From positions 1 to 58,989 of the forward strand of contig JAFVAI010000004.1 in NCBI GenBank assembly GCA_017480545.1: DNA of 58,989 nucleotides, read 5' to 3'. This document shows, piece after piece, positions 14,399-23,996 of the stretch. Below the pieces are notes generated by a model. It ran no database searches, was not told the DNA's origin, and saw only the letters and a list, made by a program, of their open reading frames with translations. The translations under genes were made by a program, and so were the position numbers. Each line of letters opens with the position of its first letter. Position 1 is the first letter of the stretch. The stretch comes from Schwartzia sp. (in: firmicutes) (GTDB lineage: Bacteria > Bacillota > Negativicutes > Selenomonadales > Selenomonadaceae).

Positions 14399-14516
14399 CA
14401 ACCTCCGGGCAAAGCCCGCCCGCAAATTTTCCACAATAGCTGCATACGAGGTCCATCCTTCTGCAAAAGTATTCTTTTTGCGGAAGGGAAGACGCCAGAA
14501 GCCTGTGACCGTGAAA

Positions 14517-14545
14517 AATATAGGGCAGAAAGCGGATTTTGTCAA
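14517..14545 (-). promoter_or_regulatory. Promoter of the ECF operon
   Basis: Minus-strand TTGACA (14545-14540), 17-base spacer, TATATT (14522-14517). The leader from about 14510 to 14399 holds a small hairpin (CGGGC-TTT-GCCCG, 14418-14406) that touches the GGAGG of ecfA1. No known riboswitch was recognised in it. Confidence 0.8.
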
Positions 14546-14564
14546 GCGCGCCTTGTCCCCCATC

Positions 14565-14616
14565 AAAAAAAGAAAATCCTCTCGCAAACTATCGTCGATT
14601 TGCGGGGGATTTTCTT
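14565..14616 (-). terminator. Terminator downstream of the L,D-transpeptidase gene
   Basis: Minus-strand stem AGAAAATCC...CGCAAA pairs with TTTGCG...GGATTTTCT around a 10-base loop, followed by seven T. It separates the transpeptidase gene (stop 14674) from the ECF promoter. Confidence 0.82.
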
Positions 14617-14673
14617 TGTAATCGGTATAAAGATTTGCACTCGATATAGCTAAAAGTTTTCAAATTGCGAAAC

Positions 14674-15384
14674 TCAAAGCTTCCAAGTCTCGGCCGTTTC
14701 CGGCGACAAGGTTTTCAGCGCGTCGATAACCACCACGCAGTCCGGACGGACGTTTTGCATCACAAAGCGCATCTGCTCTACGGGGATGGCAACGCAACCG
14801 CCCGTATACGGCTTGGCAGGACCGAAGCAGTGCAGGAAAATGGCGGAGCCGAGACCCGGCGTGCCGTTTTCGTTGTAGCTGATGTTCATAGCATAGGTGT
14901 AATGCGGATTGTAGTCAATGATATGCTCGCTCTCGTCTGTATTGAGATCGGGAAGCTCACGGATATCGACCATCCGGTTGTACTTCATGCCGGGACGCCA
15001 GTCGCCCGACCAGTAAATATTTTCGTCCACCTTCGTATAGGGAATGGCGCAGCCGGGATCGTCCGCGATGCCGAAAGCATCGGTGAAACGGAACGTCCCC
15101 ACCGGCGTCATGGCGTCGCCCTCTCTCGTCTTGTAAAGACCGTTCTTGCCGAGAAATCCGGGCGTCGTCATCATCACATACCAGTTTCCGTCCCGGTCTT
15201 TTTCGTGCATGGAAATCCACGCGGTCGTCTTGCCGATACCGGCGACGACGAAAAGCTGCCGCGCATCCTTCGCCTGCGGCAGCTTCGCCACCCACTCCGG
15301 CGAAGCCTCCTGCGCCGCAGCGGCCGTCACGCTAAAAGCCGCCAAAACCAGCACTGCCCACAAAACCGAAAAAACCTTTTTCAT
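14674..15384 (-). CDS. L,D-transpeptidase (YkuD domain), exported
   Basis: 236 residues with a signal peptide (KK, hydrophobic core, cleavage after TAAAAQ-type site near residue 25). The YkuD catalytic motif is present as HCFGPAKPYTGGCVAIP, with His and the nucleophile Cys. Such enzymes form 3-3 cross-links in peptidoglycan or attach proteins to it. ATG 15384 has GGGGAG upstream; an in-frame ATG at 15420 preceded by GGGGAGGAGG is a possible longer start. It is a single-gene unit with its own promoter and terminator. Confidence 0.88.
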   Translation of the reverse strand: MKKVFSVLWAVLVLAAFSVTAAAAQEASPEWVAKLPQAKDARQLFVVAGIGKTTAWISMHEKDRDGNWYVMMTTPGFLGKNGLYKTREGDAMTPVGTFRFTDAFGIADDPGCAIPYTKVDENIYWSGDWRPGMKYNRMVDIRELPDLNTDESEHIIDYNPHYTYAMNISYNENGTPGLGSAIFLHCFGPAKPYTGGCVAIPVEQMRFVMQNVRPDCVVVIDALKTLSPETAETWKL

Positions 15385-15521
15385 CCAAACACTCCCCTCA
15401 AAATAAAGTCTGCTTTTCATTATATTATGTCCTCCTCCCCTTTCTTTTCCGTCCGCGCTAGCAGGAGAACGCGAACACGATATTTCATCGTTTGCCTTCA
15501 TGGAGCATCCTCTTTGCCTCC

Positions 15522-15549
15522 ATCTTATCATACAGAGCAAATTTTGCAA
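15522..15549 (-). promoter_or_regulatory. Probable promoter of the L,D-transpeptidase gene
   Basis: Minus-strand TTGCAA (15549-15544), 16-base spacer, TAAGAT (15527-15522). Moderate match. The 138-base leader to ATG 15384 contains a second strong ribosome site. Confidence 0.5.
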
Positions 15550-15560
15550 TCCGAAATTAT

Positions 15561-15617
15561 AGGAAACACCGAATAAGTCAAGTCGTGCCCTTGCCGGGTC
15601 TTTTTCGGTGTTTCCTT
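15561..15617. repeat. Inverted repeat with 13-base arms
   Basis: Arms AGGAAACACCGAA and TTCGGTGTTTCCT enclose about 30 bases. Stem without a clean T run on either side, so a plain terminator is not certain. It lies in the 438-base gap 15385-15822, which also holds a promoter and a terminator; 15690-15822 shows nothing recognisable. Confidence 0.6.
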
Positions 15618-15634
15618 ATAGGTTCCCTTGATTC

Positions 15635-15682
15635 AAAAAAATCGACATAGCCGTGCATCTCAAAATGCCAGCTATGCCGATT
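15635..15682 (-). terminator. Terminator of the LPP20/TPR gene cluster
   Basis: Minus-strand stem AATCGGCATAGC pairs with GCTATGTCGATT around a 19-base loop, then a run of T. It is 140 bases beyond the stop of the last cluster gene at 15823. Confidence 0.8.
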
Positions 15683-15822
15683 CTTCTTTTCCACGGTCTC
15701 TTGTCATCGGAAGTTTCCTGATGCCTACGAACACCATCAGACATAAATCCAACTGCGTTTCATGGACATCTTCCTATAGAAAAACAGAAGAGTTCTGCGG
15801 TAGTTGCCTGTTCAGTTGTTAT

Positions 15823-16734
15823 TTATCTGACAAAAAGGACGGCGCCCTTCTGCAGATACCCGCCATCCTGATTCGAGAGCAGGATGCGGTCTGCGTCCTC
15901 AGGCGATATTACCACGTTGACAGGATTTGTGCTGTTGCTGCCTCCCTTGACAGAAACCGCTTTTACGACGAGCGCGTTTGTCCCGATACGGCTGTTGCTA
16001 TTCGCATCGGACACGGATTTGGAATATCCGACCATACCGTGGCCGATGGCGAAATTGACGTCGATGTTGCTGGCCCCGTAAACCGCACGGCCATTTGTAT
16101 CGTAAATTACAGGACTCATAGCGGGCATCAGGCCAAGCCCTCCGGCATCAACAATTACGCCCGTGTACCTGACACTTTTGACCTCTTGTATCTCCACCTG
16201 GGTAATGACCGGGGCAGTGACGGCCGGCGGCGGGACAGGCTGCTTCGGCATGACCTCGGGCAGTGCGGCGGCCGCGACCGAATTCACGCCATAGAGAGGG
16301 GCGACCATCTTCACATAGTACGAACCGTTCGGCAATTTTCCTTCATCTACGATGGACGCGCCGCGCACTACGCCAGCAATTTTGTTGCGGACGGTATCCT
16401 GCTTCAGCATCAGCATCTCCATAACGCTCTCGGCATCCACTTGGACACCTTGGACCGCTCCGACGAGGTGACGGTATGCGTCCATGATGGCTGCCTGACG
16501 CGCCAAATCATCAGCCCCCTGCTCGTTGATGTTCGGCTGCCGTCCGTGTCCCACCGCATACACTACCTCATTTTCCCAAAGCACGCCGCCCGCATTCGTA
16601 GATACGTCAACTGAAACATTCGTGGTGACGCCGGCCTGTGGCGTTGTCATGGCGCCGGTGTATCCGACAGGCGTTCCGGCCACGGCTATACCGACGGATA
16701 ATACGGCAATGAGTTTTTTTGATAATCTTTTCAT
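15823..16734 (-). CDS. Exported LPP20-like protein (type C), last gene of cluster
   Basis: 303 residues with a signal peptide. It has an LPP20-like region (GADDLARQAAIMDAYRHLVG, then VRNKIAGVVRGASIV), a Pro-rich spacer near residues 158-175, and a C-terminal domain starting VRYTGVIVDAGGLGLMPAMS and ending DADRILLSNQDGGYLQ...VLFVR. That C-terminal domain is shared with the gene at 18972-19751. ATG 16734 has AAAGGG upstream. Function unknown; LPP20/FlgP-like proteins are envelope-associated. It is the distal gene of the six-gene cluster. Confidence 0.78.
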   Translation of the reverse strand: MKRLSKKLIAVLSVGIAVAGTPVGYTGAMTTPQAGVTTNVSVDVSTNAGGVLWENEVVYAVGHGRQPNINEQGADDLARQAAIMDAYRHLVGAVQGVQVDAESVMEMLMLKQDTVRNKIAGVVRGASIVDEGKLPNGSYYVKMVAPLYGVNSVAAAALPEVMPKQPVPPPAVTAPVITQVEIQEVKSVRYTGVIVDAGGLGLMPAMSPVIYDTNGRAVYGASNIDVNFAIGHGMVGYSKSVSDANSNSRIGTNALVVKAVSVKGGSNSTNPVNVVISPEDADRILLSNQDGGYLQKGAVLFVR

Positions 16735-16784
16735 TAAAATACACCCTTTCCTAGTTAGAGTAATGCCAACCACGAAAAAACTTC

Positions 16785-18011
16785 TCACCTCATCTTCTGC
16801 TGAATCATTTGACGAAGGTTGTGTGCTGCCTCATCATCGGGACGAAGTTCCAACGAGCGGTTTATGTCCGACAACGCTTCACCATATCTTCCCAACCTCG
16901 CGTAAACGGAGGCCCGGTTGTAATAGCACTCCGAATACTCCTGATTGGCCTGCACGGCTTTCGTGTATTCCTGAACCGCCTCGGGATAACGCTCCAACGC
17001 CGCATATACGTTGCCGAGATTATTGTGTGCGTCCGCATATCCGGCATCAATCGAGAGCGCCTGACGAAAATCTTTTATCGCGCTGTCATATTGCCCGACC
17101 GCGGCATAGGAATTGCCTCGGTTATTATACGCAAACTGGTACTGCGGCATGAGCCGGATTGCTCTCGTGTAATCCTCAATGGCTGCCGCAACGCGCCCGA
17201 AATCGTAATGCACAATGCCGCGATTGTTGTATGCGTATGCGAACTCTTGGTTAAGTTCCGTCGCCCTGTTGAAGTCTTCCATCGCCCGGTCAGGCTGACG
17301 GAGATGGTAATACGTCAGTCCGCGGTTATTATATGCCTCCGAGGATGACGGATTCAGCTTCACTGCCTCGTCGTACTCGGCAAGAGCTTCCCTGTATCTT
17401 TTCTGTGCATACAGGGCATTTCCACGCTCTATGGACTGATTGGCCGAAAATTTAATGTCATTATTTTCAATCGCCTTTTGCAGTCCCGCCTTTTCCTCGG
17501 CATTGGTTGCTGTGCCATAAGCTTTCTTAAGTGAATCCATCTGCGCCTTGAGCTCGTCATATTCCTTCTGGAGCTCGTTATAGCGCCGAACACTCTCCTC
17601 CAGTCCCTGCTTGTCCTTCATTATGGACTGCAACGCCAAACCGTCGGTATCGCTCACCACGGCCTTGATAGTAACGGTAAACTTCAGCAAGTTCTCCTGC
17701 ACAACGCTGACATTGCTGGTTTCTTCCTCACTTTTAAGGAGCTGTGCCGCGACCATGTGGATTTCATCTGTCTCCAGCTGCAGATTGACGGCCTTGGAAT
17801 AGCTTTCGATATATACCCCGGCCTTTTCAACCGCCGCGCGTTTTGCCTGTTCCTTCGCACGGTTCTTCGCCACATCCGGCGTCTCGTTCAGGCTGATATC
17901 CATGACATAGCTCCCCGATGCCTCAATCAACCGGGAATCCGCGAAGGCTGTAGTAAGATGCATGAAACAGAGCAGCATGGCTCCCAAAGCAAAAGAAATT
18001 ATATTTTTCAT
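16785..18011 (-). CDS. Exported LPP20-like/coiled-coil/TPR protein (type A)
   Basis: 408 residues: signal peptide to about 25; LPP20-like domain with LIEASGSYVMDISLNETPDV, RAKEQAKRAAVEKAGVYIES and DEIHMVAAQLLK; a coiled coil at roughly 135-185; then six or more TPR units (repeated AYNNRG, YNNRGNSY, AHNNLGNVY patterns) to the end. ATG 18011 overlaps the stop of the preceding gene (ATGA), so translation is coupled. Paralogous to 18008-18910 and 20815-22038. A periplasmic or outer-membrane scaffold role is inferred from the architecture only. Confidence 0.8.
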   Translation of the reverse strand: MKNIISFALGAMLLCFMHLTTAFADSRLIEASGSYVMDISLNETPDVAKNRAKEQAKRAAVEKAGVYIESYSKAVNLQLETDEIHMVAAQLLKSEEETSNVSVVQENLLKFTVTIKAVVSDTDGLALQSIMKDKQGLEESVRRYNELQKEYDELKAQMDSLKKAYGTATNAEEKAGLQKAIENNDIKFSANQSIERGNALYAQKRYREALAEYDEAVKLNPSSSEAYNNRGLTYYHLRQPDRAMEDFNRATELNQEFAYAYNNRGIVHYDFGRVAAAIEDYTRAIRLMPQYQFAYNNRGNSYAAVGQYDSAIKDFRQALSIDAGYADAHNNLGNVYAALERYPEAVQEYTKAVQANQEYSECYYNRASVYARLGRYGEALSDINRSLELRPDDEAAHNLRQMIQQKMR

Positions 18012-18910
18012 GTGCCGGTCCTCCCAAGCGATTTCAAAAGCCGTTCACGAGCGCGCTTGGCACGCTTGTCCTGCGGCGCTCTGGCAAGAGAACGTCCGTA
18101 GTCTTCAAGCGCGGCGTCGTAATTTCCCATTTTCTCATATACCGCGCCGCGAAGGAAATACGCATCCGCCGACTCGTTTGTAAGGGCAATCAGGCTCGTA
18201 TAGTCCGACAGGGCATTTTCATAATCCCCCATCCCCTCGCAGGCTTTCGCGCGACCGTAGTACGCATCGGCGTATTGGGGGAATTCCTCTATAGCGTGGC
18301 TGTATTCCCTTGCGGCAGCTGCGTATTTGTTTTCTGAAAGCAGCTCGTTGCCCTTTGATAAATATTCCTGCGCTTTTTTTGCATCGAAGTTGGTTTGTGG
18401 ATCCGATTTCTCTTTTTGGAGGCGTTCATATTCTCGTGCCAGTCTTTCGTTTTCAAGGCGCATCGCATCATATTCCTCGGATAATGCCTTGTTGGAGCTT
18501 TCCATATCCTGAAGTTTTTTCGCGATTACGTCGGAATCGACCACTGCCACGATAATGGCGGTATATTGGAGCACATCCTGGTTCAATGCCTTGATCTGGT
18601 AGGTCTCGTTTTCGACATTTACGACCTCCCCGGCAATGGAGATGATTTCATCCTTGGTCACGCGATAATTTTTCATCTCGCTGTAGCTTTCAACGTATAC
18701 CCCCGCCTTTTCCACAGCGATTCTCATCGCTTCCCGCTTCGCCCTCTCCTTTGCCATTTTCGGGGACTCATCCGCACCGCCGCCGACGGTGTATATCCCC
18801 GTAGCCTCGATTTTTTGCAATTCGGCGTTGGCTGTTTGGGGTACAAACAATGAATTCAAGGCGGCGAGAACCATGAGAGCCGCCGTATATTTTTTCAGCT
18901 TCGTATCCAT
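18008..18910 (-). CDS. Exported LPP20-like/coiled-coil/TPR protein (type A)
   Basis: 300 residues with the same plan as its neighbour: signal peptide, LPP20-like domain (KIEATGIYTVGGGADESPKM, RAKREAMRIAVEKAGVYVES, DEIISIAGEVV), a coiled coil around 130-165, and three TPR units (NELLSENKYAAAAREYSHAI onward). The C-terminus is basic (RAKRARERLLKSLGRTGT). Its stop overlaps the next start. The fewer TPRs suggest expansion and contraction of repeats among paralogues. Function not recognised. Confidence 0.78.
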   Translation of the reverse strand: MDTKLKKYTAALMVLAALNSLFVPQTANAELQKIEATGIYTVGGGADESPKMAKERAKREAMRIAVEKAGVYVESYSEMKNYRVTKDEIISIAGEVVNVENETYQIKALNQDVLQYTAIIVAVVDSDVIAKKLQDMESSNKALSEEYDAMRLENERLAREYERLQKEKSDPQTNFDAKKAQEYLSKGNELLSENKYAAAAREYSHAIEEFPQYADAYYGRAKACEGMGDYENALSDYTSLIALTNESADAYFLRGAVYEKMGNYDAALEDYGRSLARAPQDKRAKRARERLLKSLGRTGT

Positions 18911-18971
18911 CCCCCCTTATGCGCCGTTTATATCCGCTTGGAGCGCCACGATGCGGCGTTTCCTGAACGTC

Positions 18972-19751
18972 CTAGCGGACAAACACAACGCTGCACTGTT
19001 TCAGAAAACCTCCGGCCTGATTGGAAACCAGTATTTTGTCCGCATCTTCCTGGCTGATGACCGGGTCGCATGAGGCGTGTACACTCACGGCCTTCACCAC
19101 AAGCGGCTGGATGCCCGCGCGTTCCACCCCGGAGTCCATCTTGTGCGAATAGGCTACCATCCCATGATCGAGGACATTCTGATAGTCGAGATTCGCATAG
19201 TCATATATCTTCTCCCCGCCGGAAGTCATAATAGCGGGAGAAACCGCGGTCTCCAACCCGAGCCCGCGGCAGTCGATGATGACGCCAGTATATCGTACAC
19301 CGGAAGACGCGCTGCTCTCCGTATTCGTATATTTGGGCTTCGGGAAGTCCACCGTTTCCTTGTTCTTCGGCAACACCGCCGCCACAAGAGATTCAGGGCT
19401 CCCGTAAGCGGAGAGGCGCACCAACGCACGAAAGGAGCCGTCTTTTTCCTTGCTGACGGAGATGACCTTCGCGCCGTGAATGATGGACTCGATATTGGAG
19501 TTGATTTCGTCGTTCACGGTTCTGGACTGGCGAACCGTAGTTGATGAAGATATATGAAGGTCATCCACTTGCTCTGCCAGATATCTGTATGCATCCATCA
19601 CCGCCGAGCGGCGTCCCGGCCCGTCAGGCTGTCCGGCCTCCCCGAAGCCCTCGGCCTCCACATATCCCTCATCCGTCAGGTCTGCGGCGAAAGATATGCC
19701 GGAAAACAGAATCATCCCCGACGCCAACAGCGCCGCCAACTTCTTTTTCAT
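18972..19751 (-). CDS. Exported LPP20-like protein (type C)
   Basis: 259 residues, signal peptide to about 22. An LPP20-like half (GYVEAEGFGEAGQPDGPGRR, SAVMDAYRYLAEQVDDLHIS) is joined to the C-terminal domain VRYTGVIIDCRGLGLETAVS ... EDADKILVSNQAGGFLKQ ... VVFVR, matching the gene at 15823-16734. ATG 19751 is 5 bases after GGGGGG. Same strand and cluster, 19 bases after the preceding stop. Not a TPR protein; the two type C proteins alternate with type A proteins along the cluster. Confidence 0.78.
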   Translation of the reverse strand: MKKKLAALLASGMILFSGISFAADLTDEGYVEAEGFGEAGQPDGPGRRSAVMDAYRYLAEQVDDLHISSSTTVRQSRTVNDEINSNIESIIHGAKVISVSKEKDGSFRALVRLSAYGSPESLVAAVLPKNKETVDFPKPKYTNTESSASSGVRYTGVIIDCRGLGLETAVSPAIMTSGGEKIYDYANLDYQNVLDHGMVAYSHKMDSGVERAGIQPLVVKAVSVHASCDPVISQEDADKILVSNQAGGFLKQCSVVFVR

Positions 19752-19770
19752 CTTATCCCCCCACATAGTA

Positions 19771-20760
19771 TCAGCCGTTTTGCGATTTCGCCTTCCTGAT
19801 GGCGGCTATCCTTTTGCGCAATTCATCGGAATACGACGGTTCCCACGACAAGGCTTTTTCATAATCCGCAAGGGCCTCATCATACAATTTTAAGCTCTGA
19901 TACGCTGTCCCCCGGTTTATGTACGCATCCGGGCCCGGCTGGATGGAAATGAACTCCGTGAAATCCTCCACGGCCTTGCGGTACTTCTCCATCTCCAAAT
20001 ACGCGCAGCCCCTTTCAAACAGCGCGTCCTTGTAATAGCTGAAACTCGTGGAGGCGGGGTTGTTCGAGGACATCCCCATCACGCTTGCAAAATCGTCGGC
20101 AGCCTTGTTCCACTCCTGCTTTCTGTAATATGCCCTGCCACGAATCCAGTAACAATTTGCGCGCGGCCAGAAACTGAAATCCTTTGCCGCGATTTTGAGC
20201 GCTTCGCTGCACGACCGAACGGCATTGTCGTTGTCCCTTTGGTTGAAGTAATACTCGCCTGCATTCACGAAAGCCTCCGCACGCCTGTTTTTGGCTTCAT
20301 CCGGCTCGATCGCGGCAGCTTTTTTGCAAGTTTCATCGTATATCTTGTCCTCGGCGGTTCCTTTCTGTGTCTTGTCCCAATGTTGGGTTTCTTCGTTCCA
20401 ATAATATCCGCCCCCGGTATCCCAGTCGGACAGAAAAGCATACGTCTTGCTTTCCAATTTTGCAGTATCGGGGGCTTGGATTTTTACGGAAACATAGTAT
20501 TGCATACATGCGTTGCTCCAAGTGCTCGTCGCCCTGACCGTACGCCCATATCCATCATCATTTACGTCCAGGCTGTCCAAATAATACGCATACCCCTTTT
20601 CGTCGGTGAAAACAGGCGTTTTCCCTTCCGTCGAAAACGCAGAGCATACGGAAGGAGCCAAGCACGGAACAAGCGCTTCGCCGGGAATCCCAAAATGCAG
20701 CGCAACCGCCGCGGAAAGTCCGAGCAATACTTTTTTGGTCAATTTTCTCATTTGCAACAT
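19771..20760 (-). CDS. Exported TPR-repeat protein
   Basis: About 329 residues, N-terminal signal (KKVLLGLSAAVALHFG). A unique region of about 110 residues with many aromatics (SDWDTGGGYYWNEETQHWDK) is followed by TPR units from about residue 165 (AEAFVNAGEYYFNQRDNDNA onward). ATG 20760 sits close to AAGGAG; TTG 20757 or ATG 20751 would have better spacing. It lacks the LPP20-like domain of its neighbours. The aromatic region resembles a surface or secreted domain but was not recognised. Confidence 0.75.
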   Translation of the reverse strand: MLQMRKLTKKVLLGLSAAVALHFGIPGEALVPCLAPSVCSAFSTEGKTPVFTDEKGYAYYLDSLDVNDDGYGRTVRATSTWSNACMQYYVSVKIQAPDTAKLESKTYAFLSDWDTGGGYYWNEETQHWDKTQKGTAEDKIYDETCKKAAAIEPDEAKNRRAEAFVNAGEYYFNQRDNDNAVRSCSEALKIAAKDFSFWPRANCYWIRGRAYYRKQEWNKAADDFASVMGMSSNNPASTSFSYYKDALFERGCAYLEMEKYRKAVEDFTEFISIQPGPDAYINRGTAYQSLKLYDEALADYEKALSWEPSYSDELRKRIAAIRKAKSQNG

Positions 20761-20814
20761 CCTCTCCTTGAAATAATAAGCATGGCAAAAACTTTCAAGG
20801 CGGCCATGCCGCCG

Positions 20815-22038
20815 TCAAAACTGAACCCGATGGCGATTCCGCTCCGCTTCCAATGCCTTGCGGCGCGCTTGCTGTTTCCTGAGCTGCTCCTGATTTTCCT
20901 GCGCCTGCTTAGCCATCTCCTGCTGGATTTTAATTCCGCCCAACAGGGATTTGGCGTGGCTGTTGTCCGGGGTAATTGACAGTACTTTGTTTAAGTCATC
21001 AGTGGCGGCCTGCAGGTTCTTTTCCCCATACAAGAGAATCATAGCGCGGCCTATATATGCGTCCACATATTTGGGATTGATGGATATGGCCTTTGTGAAA
21101 TCGGAAATGGCGCCGGGATAATTTTTCATTCTTTGGTACGCGACCCCACGGCTGTAGTATACATAAGCATCGTTGGGATTTAATTGCAACGCCCGGTTAT
21201 AATAATCTATGGCATCATCACTTTCGCCCACTCGGGAATACAGGTCGCCATATACTACATAAATCTTCGCTGCATCCGGTTTCAACCGCAGCGCCTTGTC
21301 AAGGTCTTTTTTCGCTTCCATATAGTTATTGAGTCGCAGGTATGCCGCCCCCCGATTGGCGTACAAATCAGGATTATCAGGGGTAAGCTCTATCGCCTTG
21401 TCATACTCCGTCACGGCGCTGAAGAAATGGTCGGTATTGTACAGCTCAACTCCCCTTTCAACGTATTGGTTGGCCTGAAACAGCCTGTCGCTCTGGATTG
21501 CGGCGGATTTCAGTTTTGCCCGTTCATTTTCGCTGACCGCCGCCGCATATTTTTGTTTCAGTTCCGCGTTTGCTTTTTTTATGCGCTCGTAGTCGCTTTG
21601 AAGCTGCTGGTTGAACAGCACCTTTTCGCTCCAGTCCTTTTTGTTTTCGATGAGCTTTTCCAAATCAATGGTGTCGGCATCGGCAAACGCTGTTATATGC
21701 ACGGTGAATTCGATGTTGTTCCCGTCCACCCGTTTCGTTACTTTTTCATCTTGTATTTTCAGTATCTGCGCCGCCAAGACTTGAAGCTCATCACTCGTGA
21801 GCCTGCCGTTCACGGAGTTTGACGCGCCTTTCAAATAGAAGCCGGATTGCTCCACGGCAGCCCGCTTTGCCTCGCGCCGCGCCCGATCTTCGGCGACGGC
21901 AAAAGGCTCATCCAAGTCTGTGTTCATCAGATATGTGCCCGTCGCCTCTATCATCTGCGGCGCAGCCAGTATCACGCCGAACGGGATTATGATGGCTGCC
22001 ATCAACAATACGTATATCGTCCTAATTTTTTCGGGCAT
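20815..22038 (-). CDS. Exported LPP20-like/coiled-coil/TPR protein (type A), first gene of cluster
   Basis: 407 residues: membrane/signal segment at 7-27, LPP20-like domain (MIEATGTYLMNTDLDEPFAV, RARREAKRAAVEQSGFYLKG, DELQVLAAQILKI), coiled coil around 140-190, at least five TPR units (VTEYDKAIELTPDNPDLYAN onward) and a Gln/Arg-rich tail. ATG 22038 has AAGGAG 8 bases upstream; the frame extends further upstream without a ribosome site, through the inverted site at 22136-22167. No promoter is visible between that site and the gene. It is the gene that would be switched on by inversion of the upstream cassette. Confidence 0.8.
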   Translation of the reverse strand: MPEKIRTIYVLLMAAIIIPFGVILAAPQMIEATGTYLMNTDLDEPFAVAEDRARREAKRAAVEQSGFYLKGASNSVNGRLTSDELQVLAAQILKIQDEKVTKRVDGNNIEFTVHITAFADADTIDLEKLIENKKDWSEKVLFNQQLQSDYERIKKANAELKQKYAAAVSENERAKLKSAAIQSDRLFQANQYVERGVELYNTDHFFSAVTEYDKAIELTPDNPDLYANRGAAYLRLNNYMEAKKDLDKALRLKPDAAKIYVVYGDLYSRVGESDDAIDYYNRALQLNPNDAYVYYSRGVAYQRMKNYPGAISDFTKAISINPKYVDAYIGRAMILLYGEKNLQAATDDLNKVLSITPDNSHAKSLLGGIKIQQEMAKQAQENQEQLRKQQARRKALEAERNRHRVQF

Positions 22039-22135
22039 TGACCTTCTCCTTCTTTTGCATGGCCAATGACGCGTTGTATTTTTCTGCCAACAGCGACATG
22101 GGCGCCTCTTCTCGCATCGAAATTGCCTGCTGTGA

Positions 22136-22167
22136 TTTTCGTGTAGTAAGCTACTCCACGAAAATAC
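22136..22167 (+). repeat. Left inverted recombination site (IRL)
   Basis: Arms TTTTCGTGTAG and CTCCACGAAAA flank a 7-base core TAAGCTA, followed by TAC. Matches the reverse complement of 23520-23551 at 30 of 32 positions. Arms-plus-asymmetric-core is the layout of tyrosine recombinase crossover sites. Because the core is asymmetric, pairing with the right site is only possible in the inverted sense. Confidence 0.7.
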
Positions 22168-22204
22168 TGCTCCAAGCCGCGCCATCTCTACGACCCCAAA
22201 TTTT

Positions 22205-22318
22205 TGACGGCTTATTTTGACGGCTTAAACCATACAAAAGAAAGACTCGTCTATGCGACAAATACCAATCGCATAGCCGAGTCTTTCTTTTTTCTGTTGA
22301 CGGCTTGCCTGACGGCTT
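22205..22318 (+). repeat. Four TGACGGCTT direct repeats (candidate recombinase arm sites)
   Basis: Copies start at 22205, 22218, 22298 and 22310: two pairs with 13- and 12-base spacing, one on each side of the recombinase terminator hairpin. Int proteins of the Tn916/lambda type bind such arm-type repeats with their N-terminal domain. Function inferred from position. Confidence 0.55.
22238..22294 (-). terminator. Bidirectional terminator after the recombinase gene
   Basis: Stem GAAAGACTCG...CTATGCGA with TCGCATAG...CGAGTCTTTC, 10-base loop, A/T runs on both sides. It closes the recombinase transcript before it can enter the LPP20/TPR cluster. Confidence 0.85.
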
Positions 22319-22322
22319 GTCT

Positions 22323-23426
22323 TTATGCCGCCGCCAACTTTGCCATATATTCCCGCTTTAGCGCCATCGTCGGATGCACATAGCGGTTCAACGTGATATT
22401 GACGCTGGCATGTCCTAAAATCTCGCTCAAACACTTTGCATCGAAGCCCGCTTCCACGCACTTCGTCGCGAACGTGTGCCGGAGAGCGTGAAAATTCGCG
22501 TCCGCAACACCGCAGGCGGCAAGCACCGCCTTGAAGCGATTCTGCATCGTCCTCGGTTCTATCGATTTCTCTGCGTCTCCCGTAAGCAGGAACGAGCCCG
22601 CTTGATATGCGTCACCGAGATATTTGCAAAGCCAATCAGACAGAGGGATTTCGCGCACCGCGCACTCGCTCTTTGGGGAGGTGGTGACAATTTTTGTTCC
22701 ATTCCCGACGCGAACACGTTGCATTGTCTTGGATATACGCAATTTCCGCTCATGCAAAGAAACATCGTCCCAACGCAACGCACAAAGCTCCCCGATGCGT
22801 ATGCCCGTGAACAGGCAAAGCAGGATGCCCAAATTATCCGGCGTCAGATGCTCAATCAAATAAGTGCTGAGACGTTTCTGCTCCTGAGGGCTGAATACGC
22901 GCATTGTCTTTTGCGACTGCTTGATGGTCAAGCAGTCGCCAGAGTACCCCACCGTATAATCACGGTTCAGCGCGTATTTGCGAAGATACTTGATGACGCG
23001 AAATATCTCCGCAACCGTCTTCGAGGAAAGCCCCTGCCGCTCCATGCCACCGTTCGACAAAAGACCGGAACAGAAAGCGGACACATCGGCACTTTTGATG
23101 TCGCCCATATTCTGATTGCCGAACTTCGGCAACAGGTACAAACGCAGATAGTCCCGATATTTGGCAATCGTAGAAGCCTTCAAGCAGGATTTGGATTCCT
23201 TGACCCACGACTCGCTGATGGCGCGAAATGTCGCCCTGTTTTGATTGGCCGCTTTGCTTCGAGTTTTCCATTCATACTGTGCAATAACCAATTTTTCCTT
23301 GACCTCGCGGTAAGTCGTGCCGAAGACGTAGCCAAATTGAGTACGCCCATCTGCGCGCCCCTTGACAAATCGCCCTTCCCAACGCTTATCTTTCCGATGA
23401 TAGATATTGTCCCCTCGTCTTGCCAC
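22323..23426 (-). CDS. Tyrosine recombinase/integrase
   Basis: 367 residues from GTG 23426, which has GGGAGGAG 7 bases upstream and gives the typical N-terminus MARRGDNIYHRKDKRWEGR of an arm-binding (AP2-like) domain. Core-binding SAM-like domain at about 65-160, catalytic domain from about 175. All catalytic residues are visible: Arg in GIRIGELCALRW (about 210), Lys in TTSPKS (252), HxxR in HALRHTFAT (313/316), His in LGHASVNITL (339) and Tyr in NRYVHPT (349). It lies inside the inverted-site cassette, reads toward the left site and stops before a strong terminator. No excisionase, other phage gene or tRNA target is nearby. Confidence 0.93.
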   Translation of the reverse strand: MARRGDNIYHRKDKRWEGRFVKGRADGRTQFGYVFGTTYREVKEKLVIAQYEWKTRSKAANQNRATFRAISESWVKESKSCLKASTIAKYRDYLRLYLLPKFGNQNMGDIKSADVSAFCSGLLSNGGMERQGLSSKTVAEIFRVIKYLRKYALNRDYTVGYSGDCLTIKQSQKTMRVFSPQEQKRLSTYLIEHLTPDNLGILLCLFTGIRIGELCALRWDDVSLHERKLRISKTMQRVRVGNGTKIVTTSPKSECAVREIPLSDWLCKYLGDAYQAGSFLLTGDAEKSIEPRTMQNRFKAVLAACGVADANFHALRHTFATKCVEAGFDAKCLSEILGHASVNITLNRYVHPTMALKREYMAKLAAA

Positions 23427-23470
23427 AAAGCATCTCCTCCCGACCATAACGCAAACTGCCCGAATAGTCA

Positions 23471-23499
23471 TTGACACAGAATATTGTGCGAAGTATAAT
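23471..23499 (+). promoter_or_regulatory. Consensus promoter inside the invertible cassette
   Basis: TTGACA (23471-23476), exactly 17 bases, TATAAT (23494-23499); predicted start near 23506. It points right, across the right-hand inverted site, into a terminator at 23664, with no gene between. It diverges from the recombinase gene. Inverting the cassette would aim it at the LPP20/TPR gene cluster with a leader of roughly 145 bases. Confidence 0.85.
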
Positions 23500-23519
23500 A
23501 ATTACAGAAATAGAGAAGT

Positions 23520-23551
23520 GTATTTTCGTGCAGTAGCTTACTCCACGAAAA
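23520..23551 (-). repeat. Right inverted recombination site (IRR)
   Basis: Read on the minus strand: TTTTCGTGGAG, core TAAGCTA, CTGCACGAAAA, then TAC. Differs from the left site at two arm positions. Lies 20 bases after the -10 box of the cassette promoter. Confidence 0.7.
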
Positions 23552-23663
23552 ATTTTCGATTGCATCCCCGCAACTCTGTCAAGGACAGCCAACAGCAATC
23601 CTTGTTCATTACTTGTTGCTTTTGCATCGATTTACAACATAGCGAAAGGTTCTTTTGCAAAAA

Positions 23664-23715
23664 ACTCTCCATGCGTCATCTTCTGCTCGATAACGCATGG
23701 AGAGTTTTTATTTCC
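23664..23715 (+). terminator. Strong bidirectional terminator facing the cassette promoter
   Basis: Perfect 12-base stem ACTCTCCATGCG / CGCATGGAGAGT, 18-base loop, T run on the plus side and A run upstream. In the present orientation it would end transcripts from the promoter at 23471-23499. Confidence 0.88.
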
Positions 23716-23764
23716 AATCAGAAAATTGCAGCTTTGTTCTGTTTGCACATATTTTGTTTTCATA

Positions 23765-23895
23765 CGCATCTCAGACCAAAATTTTAAACAAAATTTTGAC
23801 CTGAGATGCGCCTGCTTCGCAGGCTACAGCCGCGCTAAAGCGCGTCTGACGTCTCATGCAATCGCAGTAAGGATTTAAAAATCCTAACTGCGATT
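23765..23895. repeat. Run of four further hairpins in a gene-free stretch
   Basis: 23765-23810: arms CGCATCTCAG / CTGAGATGCG around an AAAATTTT-rich centre. 23811-23823: CCTGC-TTC-GCAGG. 23831-23844: CGCGC-TAAA-GCGCG. 23860-23895: AATCGCAGT / ACTGCGATT with inner AGGATT / AATCCT. No gene was seen between 23552 and 23996, only these hairpins and two terminators. Confidence 0.65.
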
Positions 23896-23904
23896 CGTAT
23901 CAAA

Positions 23905-23947
23905 CAAAAATCCTGCTTTGCAGGGAGTGTTCCCCGAAAGCAGGATT
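23905..23947 (-). terminator. Terminator of the cobalamin operon
   Basis: Minus-strand stem AATCCTGCTTT / AAAGCAGGATT followed by TTTTTG, 50 bases after the cobU stop. Confidence 0.85.
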
Positions 23948-23996
23948 ATTTATTCAGAACCGAAATTTCGATGGCAAGAGTTTGGCAAGACCTCTT

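Follow-up and report, generated by a model that had tools for sequence, protein, structure and literature searches.

An invertible-promoter cassette carrying its own tyrosine recombinase is predicted beside a TPR/LPP20 operon in Schwartzia sp.

The DNA analyzed here, which we call the window, is a 58,989-nt stretch of a Schwartzia sp. draft genome (GCA_017480545.1, contig JAFVAI010000004.1). At 22136-23551, two inverted repeats enclose a tyrosine recombinase gene and a consensus promoter. The features of this cassette, from left to right in window positions, are as follows:

22136..22167, plus strand: left inverted crossover site, with 11-bp arms and the core TAAGCTA at 22147-22153
22205..22226, plus strand: first arm-type repeat pair TGACGGCTT, copies at 22205-22213 and 22218-22226
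22231..22296, minus strand: hairpin separating the two repeat pairs, with a T-rich tail (-37.6 kcal/mol and z -8.8 for 22225-22305)
22298..22318, plus strand: second arm-type repeat pair TGACGGCTT, copies at 22298-22306 and 22310-22318
22323..23426, minus strand: tyrosine recombinase, 367 aa, inside the predicted invertible segment (ATG 23426, stop 22323)
23471..23499, plus strand: outward promoter TTGACA-17-TATAAT, 12/12 consensus match with a 17-nt spacer
23520..23551, minus strand: right inverted crossover site, core at 23534-23540, reading TAGCTTA on the plus strand, i.e., inverted
23660..23709, plus strand: terminator-like hairpin right of the cassette (-29.4 kcal/mol, z -8.3)

An initial annotation of this DNA had described two 32-base inverted sites, identical at 30 of 32 positions, with 11-base arms around TAAGCTA, and we found exactly this arrangement: the two 32-nt sites are 94% complementary (30/32) with a spacing of 1352 nt, both mismatches fall in the arms, and the cores are identical. 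All other elements named there were likewise recovered. The cores match in the inverted alignment only, which bears out the earlier expectation that recombination between them would invert rather than delete the segment; the sites are inverted rather than the direct repeats of attL/attR ends, which the annotation had raised as an alternative. A scan of the whole window allowing up to 9 mismatches recovered no third copy of the site, and no further copy was found elsewhere in the 2.25-Mb draft genome. We accordingly discarded a chance repeat, given the lack of a third copy in the window and an anatomy conserved across classes of bacteria; a smaller inverton nested within the cassette was likewise ruled out, there being no third site for it.

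The recombinase was described as complete, and it is intact. It matches the Pfam-type profiles Phage_integrase (E 1e-26) and a SAM-like domain (E 9e-10) and carries the R-K-H-R-H-Y catalytic set of tyrosine recombinases, with R210, K252, H313, R316, H339 and Y349 all invariant in an alignment of 36 family sequences. Its reading frame is extendable upstream to a GTG at 23477, and the family alignment begins at the ATG at 23426. An AlphaFold2 model (mean pLDDT 88) comprises an N-terminal beta-beta-beta-helix domain (residues 8-62), a core-binding domain and a catalytic domain; the closest PDB fold was Tn1549 Int (6en2; TM 0.65-0.75, 21% identity), followed by XerA and lambda Int. This domain order fits an arm-binding integrase. 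The modelled N-terminal fold, the Tn1549 Int match and the conserved arm-type repeats support the putative arm-binding domain proposed earlier.

The four TGACGGCTT repeats and the strong hairpin, which lie between the recombinase stop codon and the left site, were absent from the initial annotation. With them, the cassette reads from left to right as site, two repeats, hairpin, two repeats, recombinase (leftward), promoter and site. Selenomonad cassettes have in common four arm-type repeats, TAAGCCGTCA, that surround a terminator hairpin, and these repeats would be bound by the N-terminal domain of the recombinase, as the modelled fold suggests. The hairpin at 22231-22296 is the probable terminator of the recombinase transcript.

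Between the recombinase start and the right site lies the perfect TTGACA-17-TATAAT that had been reported there, facing away from the neighboring gene cluster; it is the only 12/12 sigma-70 match within 15 kb, the term promoter denoting a consensus match both here and in the relatives. The window thereby contains inverted crossover sites flanking a promoter, which makes the cassette an inverton in its anatomy. In the present orientation, the promoter is directed away from the cluster and into the hairpin at 23660-23709, which would stop an outward transcript in this assembled (OFF) state. On the other side of the cassette lies the predicted target operon, with open reading frames called mechanically:

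20815..22038, minus strand: first operon gene, exported TPR protein, 407 aa (ATG 22038, AAGGAG ribosome-binding site)
19771-20760, minus strand: TPR gene
18972-19766, minus strand: LPP20 gene
18008-18910, minus strand: TPR gene
16785-18011, minus strand: TPR gene
15823-16788, minus strand: LPP20-like gene, last of the operon, below the Pfam cut-off

These six tightly packed genes run from 22038 to 15823 with intact reading frames; their products contain TPR repeats or LPP20-type domains, and most have signal-peptide-like N-termini. The cluster adjoins the left site as described, its first gene (ATG 22038) being preceded by AAGGAG and starting 97 bases from the site. That this gene has no visible promoter of its own also held: the interval from 22038 to the recombinase gene contains no sigma-70-like site on the minus strand scoring 9/12 or better. 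When the segment was inverted in silico, the -10 end of the promoter landed 149 bp upstream of ATG 22038.

We then compared the setting with that of same-genus genomes. In G007, the transporter genes found at ~12.6-14.4 kb of the window directly adjoin the cob genes that begin at 23995, and the TPR/LPP20 operon plus cassette, a ~9.6-kb block (~14406-23994), is absent. In G005, a Schwartzia sp. rumen MAG, a cassette of the same anatomy and 85% identity, a figure given for the protein, lies past the same transporter genes and adjoins exported-protein genes different from those of the window. Because the G005 cassette adjoins different genes and G007 is without the block, cassette and target appear to be exchangeable independently of each other. 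The block sits between ECF-type transporter genes and cobU, a position occupied by other genes in other genomes. Just right of the cassette, at 23752-23900, is a ~150-nt intergenic repeat with many copies in the same genome and genus (74-98% identity).

The recombinase family yielded at least 567 matches among relatives and public genomes; we dissected the 80 top-ranking genome loci together with the top viral ones. Members include Selenomonadaceae, Lachnospiraceae and Oscillospiraceae, as well as, at ~31% identity, Enterococcus megaplasmids in which the locus neighbors WxL/DUF916-type surface operons; the 64 loci examined as relatives are mostly from Negativicutes and Clostridia. Inverted sites flank the recombinase in about three quarters of the dissected best relatives. 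In about one quarter a second site was not evident, so some of these are decayed or have other layouts. One locus, L110, has a small inverton that excludes the recombinase gene. The anatomy of the window cassette recurs in the 64-65 relatives analyzed, with a site consensus close to TTCGNNGAG-N7-CTCNNCGAA. Across 65 loci, an outward promoter of at least 11/12 was present in 55%, an inward one in 0%, and shuffled sequences gave 0.2%; its -10 end lies mostly 20-46 bp inside the site.

At 48/67 loci, a candidate target gene encoding at least 150 aa begins no more than ~350 bp from the cassette and is oriented outward from it. This neighbor lies away from the promoter at 35 loci, at the promoter at 6 and on both sides at 7, so OFF is the commoner state in assemblies; given the 35 against 6, the ON state may be infrequent, or a subset of the elements may be locked. 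The neighbors encode BspA-type leucine-rich and other large surface proteins, clusters that by appearance resemble TasA/SipW, NusG paralogues, a Wzz-type protein, a polysaccharide deacetylase, ErmB, TnpB-like proteins and regulators (TetR, BTAD). In one respect, the uniqueness implied for the combination of recombinase, layout and LPP20/TPR genes was not upheld: cassettes of this design occur widely, in many gut bacteria, with LPP20/TPR genes as just one target among many.

Several members have further peculiarities. Cultured Schaedlerella arabinosiphila carries a ~3.95-kb cassette (L083:3244-7199) with perfect inverted sites around the recombinase and extra cargo. An identical cassette adjoins an ErmB-type gene in Butyricicoccus, Blautia and Agathobaculum genomes and in a phage-labelled human-faecal contig (L096/L097/L098:5803-7213 and L195). 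In Enterococcus raffinosus megaplasmids (L187-L189), the recombinase of a distant relative is enclosed by perfect 26-bp inverted sites and precedes an operon resembling those for surface proteins, and in E. gilvus (L191) a similar recombinase precedes WxL/DUF916 genes.

Between the paired sites of the 64 loci, core mismatches numbered 7 in 445 positions, all from four poorly aligned loci, as against 161 in 1152 arm positions, while 57 distinct 7-bp cores occurred among the loci. That cores are kept within a locus despite 57 variants is expected if strand exchange needs core identity, and this combination of identity within loci and drift between them reads as the signature expected of a tyrosine recombinase.

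Opposite orientations, for which a comparison of related genomes had been suggested, were found between homologous loci of different species rather than within one population. The cassettes of L128 and L133 (1478 bp) are 93% identical, yet the same TetR gene adjoins the promoter end at one locus and the opposite end at the other, and the flank alignment continues through the site. Likewise, ~4.5 kb of shared flank lies on opposite sides of the cassette in L094 and L104. L096 and L158 also suggest an inversion, although L158 has no clear left site, and we do not count this pair as main evidence. The window cassette itself was seen in a single orientation, in one assembly of its source species. 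Its own assembly and the same-genus genomes gave no inverted arrangement, there being only one copy, with the other carriers in the genus in other contexts. Nor were flips seen among three E. raffinosus records with shared flanks (one orientation; the other records are different loci), among four ErmB-linked records (all in the same orientation) or as near-identical copies in viral contigs.

Together, the core identity, the conserved outward promoter and the opposite orientations in relatives support the self-inverting tyrosine-recombinase switch proposed initially, and we consider it probable, at roughly 0.86, that the locus is an autonomous invertible-promoter (phase-variation) cassette. The recombinase would recognize both near-palindromic core sites and use its N-terminal domain to contact the arm repeats, and strand exchange in the 7-bp core would invert the 1.4-kb segment, including the recombinase's own gene, within the Schwartzia population as well. 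In the OFF (assembled) orientation the strong promoter would fire rightward into the terminator; in the ON orientation it would stand 149 bp upstream of the first ATG and drive the operon of six genes for exported TPR/LPP20 proteins. In either state, the hairpin at the 3' end of the recombinase gene would shield expression of that gene from the flanking DNA.

Two other readings were weighed against this one. The sites could delimit a small mobile element, integrative or transposable, that consists of the recombinase alone and whose outward promoter affects neighbors only incidentally, inversion not being its function. Related recombinases do occur at many loci with unrelated neighbors, a degenerate relative occupies different positions in the conserved gene order of G006 and G007, the distribution is patchy (12/189 genomes of the family), and the nearest fold is that of a transposon integrase. 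However, integration would leave attL and attR as direct repeats, whereas the sites and their matching cores are inverted, which predicts inversion and not excision; the strong promoter keeps its outward direction and its place across loci, the homologous loci show inversion with flank and site still joined, and the neighboring target gene points away from the cassette at 48/67 loci. We therefore rejected this account as the main function and consider it improbable.

Slightly less probable still is that the switch once inverted and is now decayed or fixed OFF in the lineage of the window. The single orientation seen, the two arm mismatches between the sites and the predominance of OFF among assembled relatives would agree with such a loss. 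Against it stand a recombinase with all catalytic residues, identical cores, a 12/12 promoter, intact operon reading frames and the same anatomy in the same-genus relative with 85% protein identity.

Among known systems, an invertible-promoter cassette of this kind recalls Salmonella Hin, in which the recombinase gene and an outward promoter lie inside an invertible segment whose flip joins a surface-gene operon to the promoter or cuts it off. The enzyme there is a serine invertase acting at hix sites with a Fis-bound enhancer. In the window, the recombinase gene likewise lies between the sites (22323-23426), as Hin is cited to lie within its own segment (PMC5903667), but the protein has a Phage_integrase rather than a serine recombinase catalytic domain, an arm-binding-like N-terminal domain and arm-type repeats. 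The Hin-like layout with a tyrosine recombinase noted earlier is thus confirmed, and the cassette would work like Hin without being a member of its family, the catalytic family being different. The fim switch (FimB/FimE) and the RecV switches of Clostridioides difficile resemble it in that a tyrosine recombinase inverts a short segment ahead of surface genes; in both, the recombinase lies outside the inverted segment, whereas that of the window lies inside and would move with the promoter. RecV serves several switches (PMC5903667). Tn916 also has arm repeats close to its recombinase gene, and Tn1549/Tn916-type integrases give the best fold match; unlike those elements, the cassette has inverted sites and an insulated outward promoter but no conjugative genes or direct-repeat ends.

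The nearest description that we found (PMC11892184) is inverton group 139 with invertase group 35, mostly from Clostridia, with a tyrosine recombinase near nearly every inverton and inversion measured by reads. Because the examples quoted there are ~255 bp, the recombinase must lie outside them, in contrast to the window, and the text consulted reports no recombinase-containing cassettes; L110 shows that the family of the window can have such a layout too. Promoter inversion is a known mechanism, but we could not find a description of an autonomous tyrosine-recombinase cassette family, nor of recombinase-inside tyrosine switches in Negativicutes or Clostridia, in the literature covered by our search. 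PhaseFinder searched invertible intergenic regions, according to a review (PMC11868660), and intergenic-only screens could explain why cassettes with a recombinase gene inside the segment were overlooked.

We lean, by a modest margin over even odds, towards a broader view in which the window is one of a large, largely unrecognized family of portable, target-agnostic phase-variation modules in Bacillota that relocate between genomes, capture operons and have non-autonomous derivatives served in trans. Such modules would span Negativicutes, Clostridia and Enterococcus, each an insulated recombinase with arm sites and an outward promoter, with captured targets including envelope proteins, NusG paralogues, transcription regulators, dead TnpB-like proteins and a resistance gene. 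DNA-inversion switches are far less catalogued in Firmicutes-type gut bacteria than in Bacteroides, and one compact module would then account for phase variation at many unrelated loci in the former. Switches and their targets would be predictable from TTCGNNGAG-N7-CTCNNCGAA sites, an outward TTGACA-17-TATAAT and an enclosed recombinase, the cassette would amount to a self-contained, portable genetic toggle, and the dead TnpB-like proteins would become candidate phase-variable regulators.

TnpB-like neighbors, assigned by guided_TnpB / Cas12f1-like TNB matches, adjoin the promoter end of the cassette in L037 and L040, whereas those of L043/L132, L082 and L086 are found at the opposite end (L037:7761-9101, L040:10244-11641, L043:1807-3135, L082:7258-8586, L086:7207-8592; also L257:1340-2749). 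All three RuvC catalytic positions appear substituted in an alignment read by eye, which suggests nuclease-dead, TldR-like proteins under putative phase-variable promoters. A conserved second gene often follows (MEKLxxxQILDLL..., 858 aa in L037). In G012, a 328-bp derivative without a recombinase (L257:2789-3116) keeps both sites, with inverted cores TATGATA/TATCATA, four arm repeats with the hairpin, and a promoter facing the adjacent TnpB-like gene. A recombinase of the family is encoded on another contig of the same genome and presumably serves the derivative in trans, and the retained parts support a role for the arm repeats and the promoter in the switch itself.
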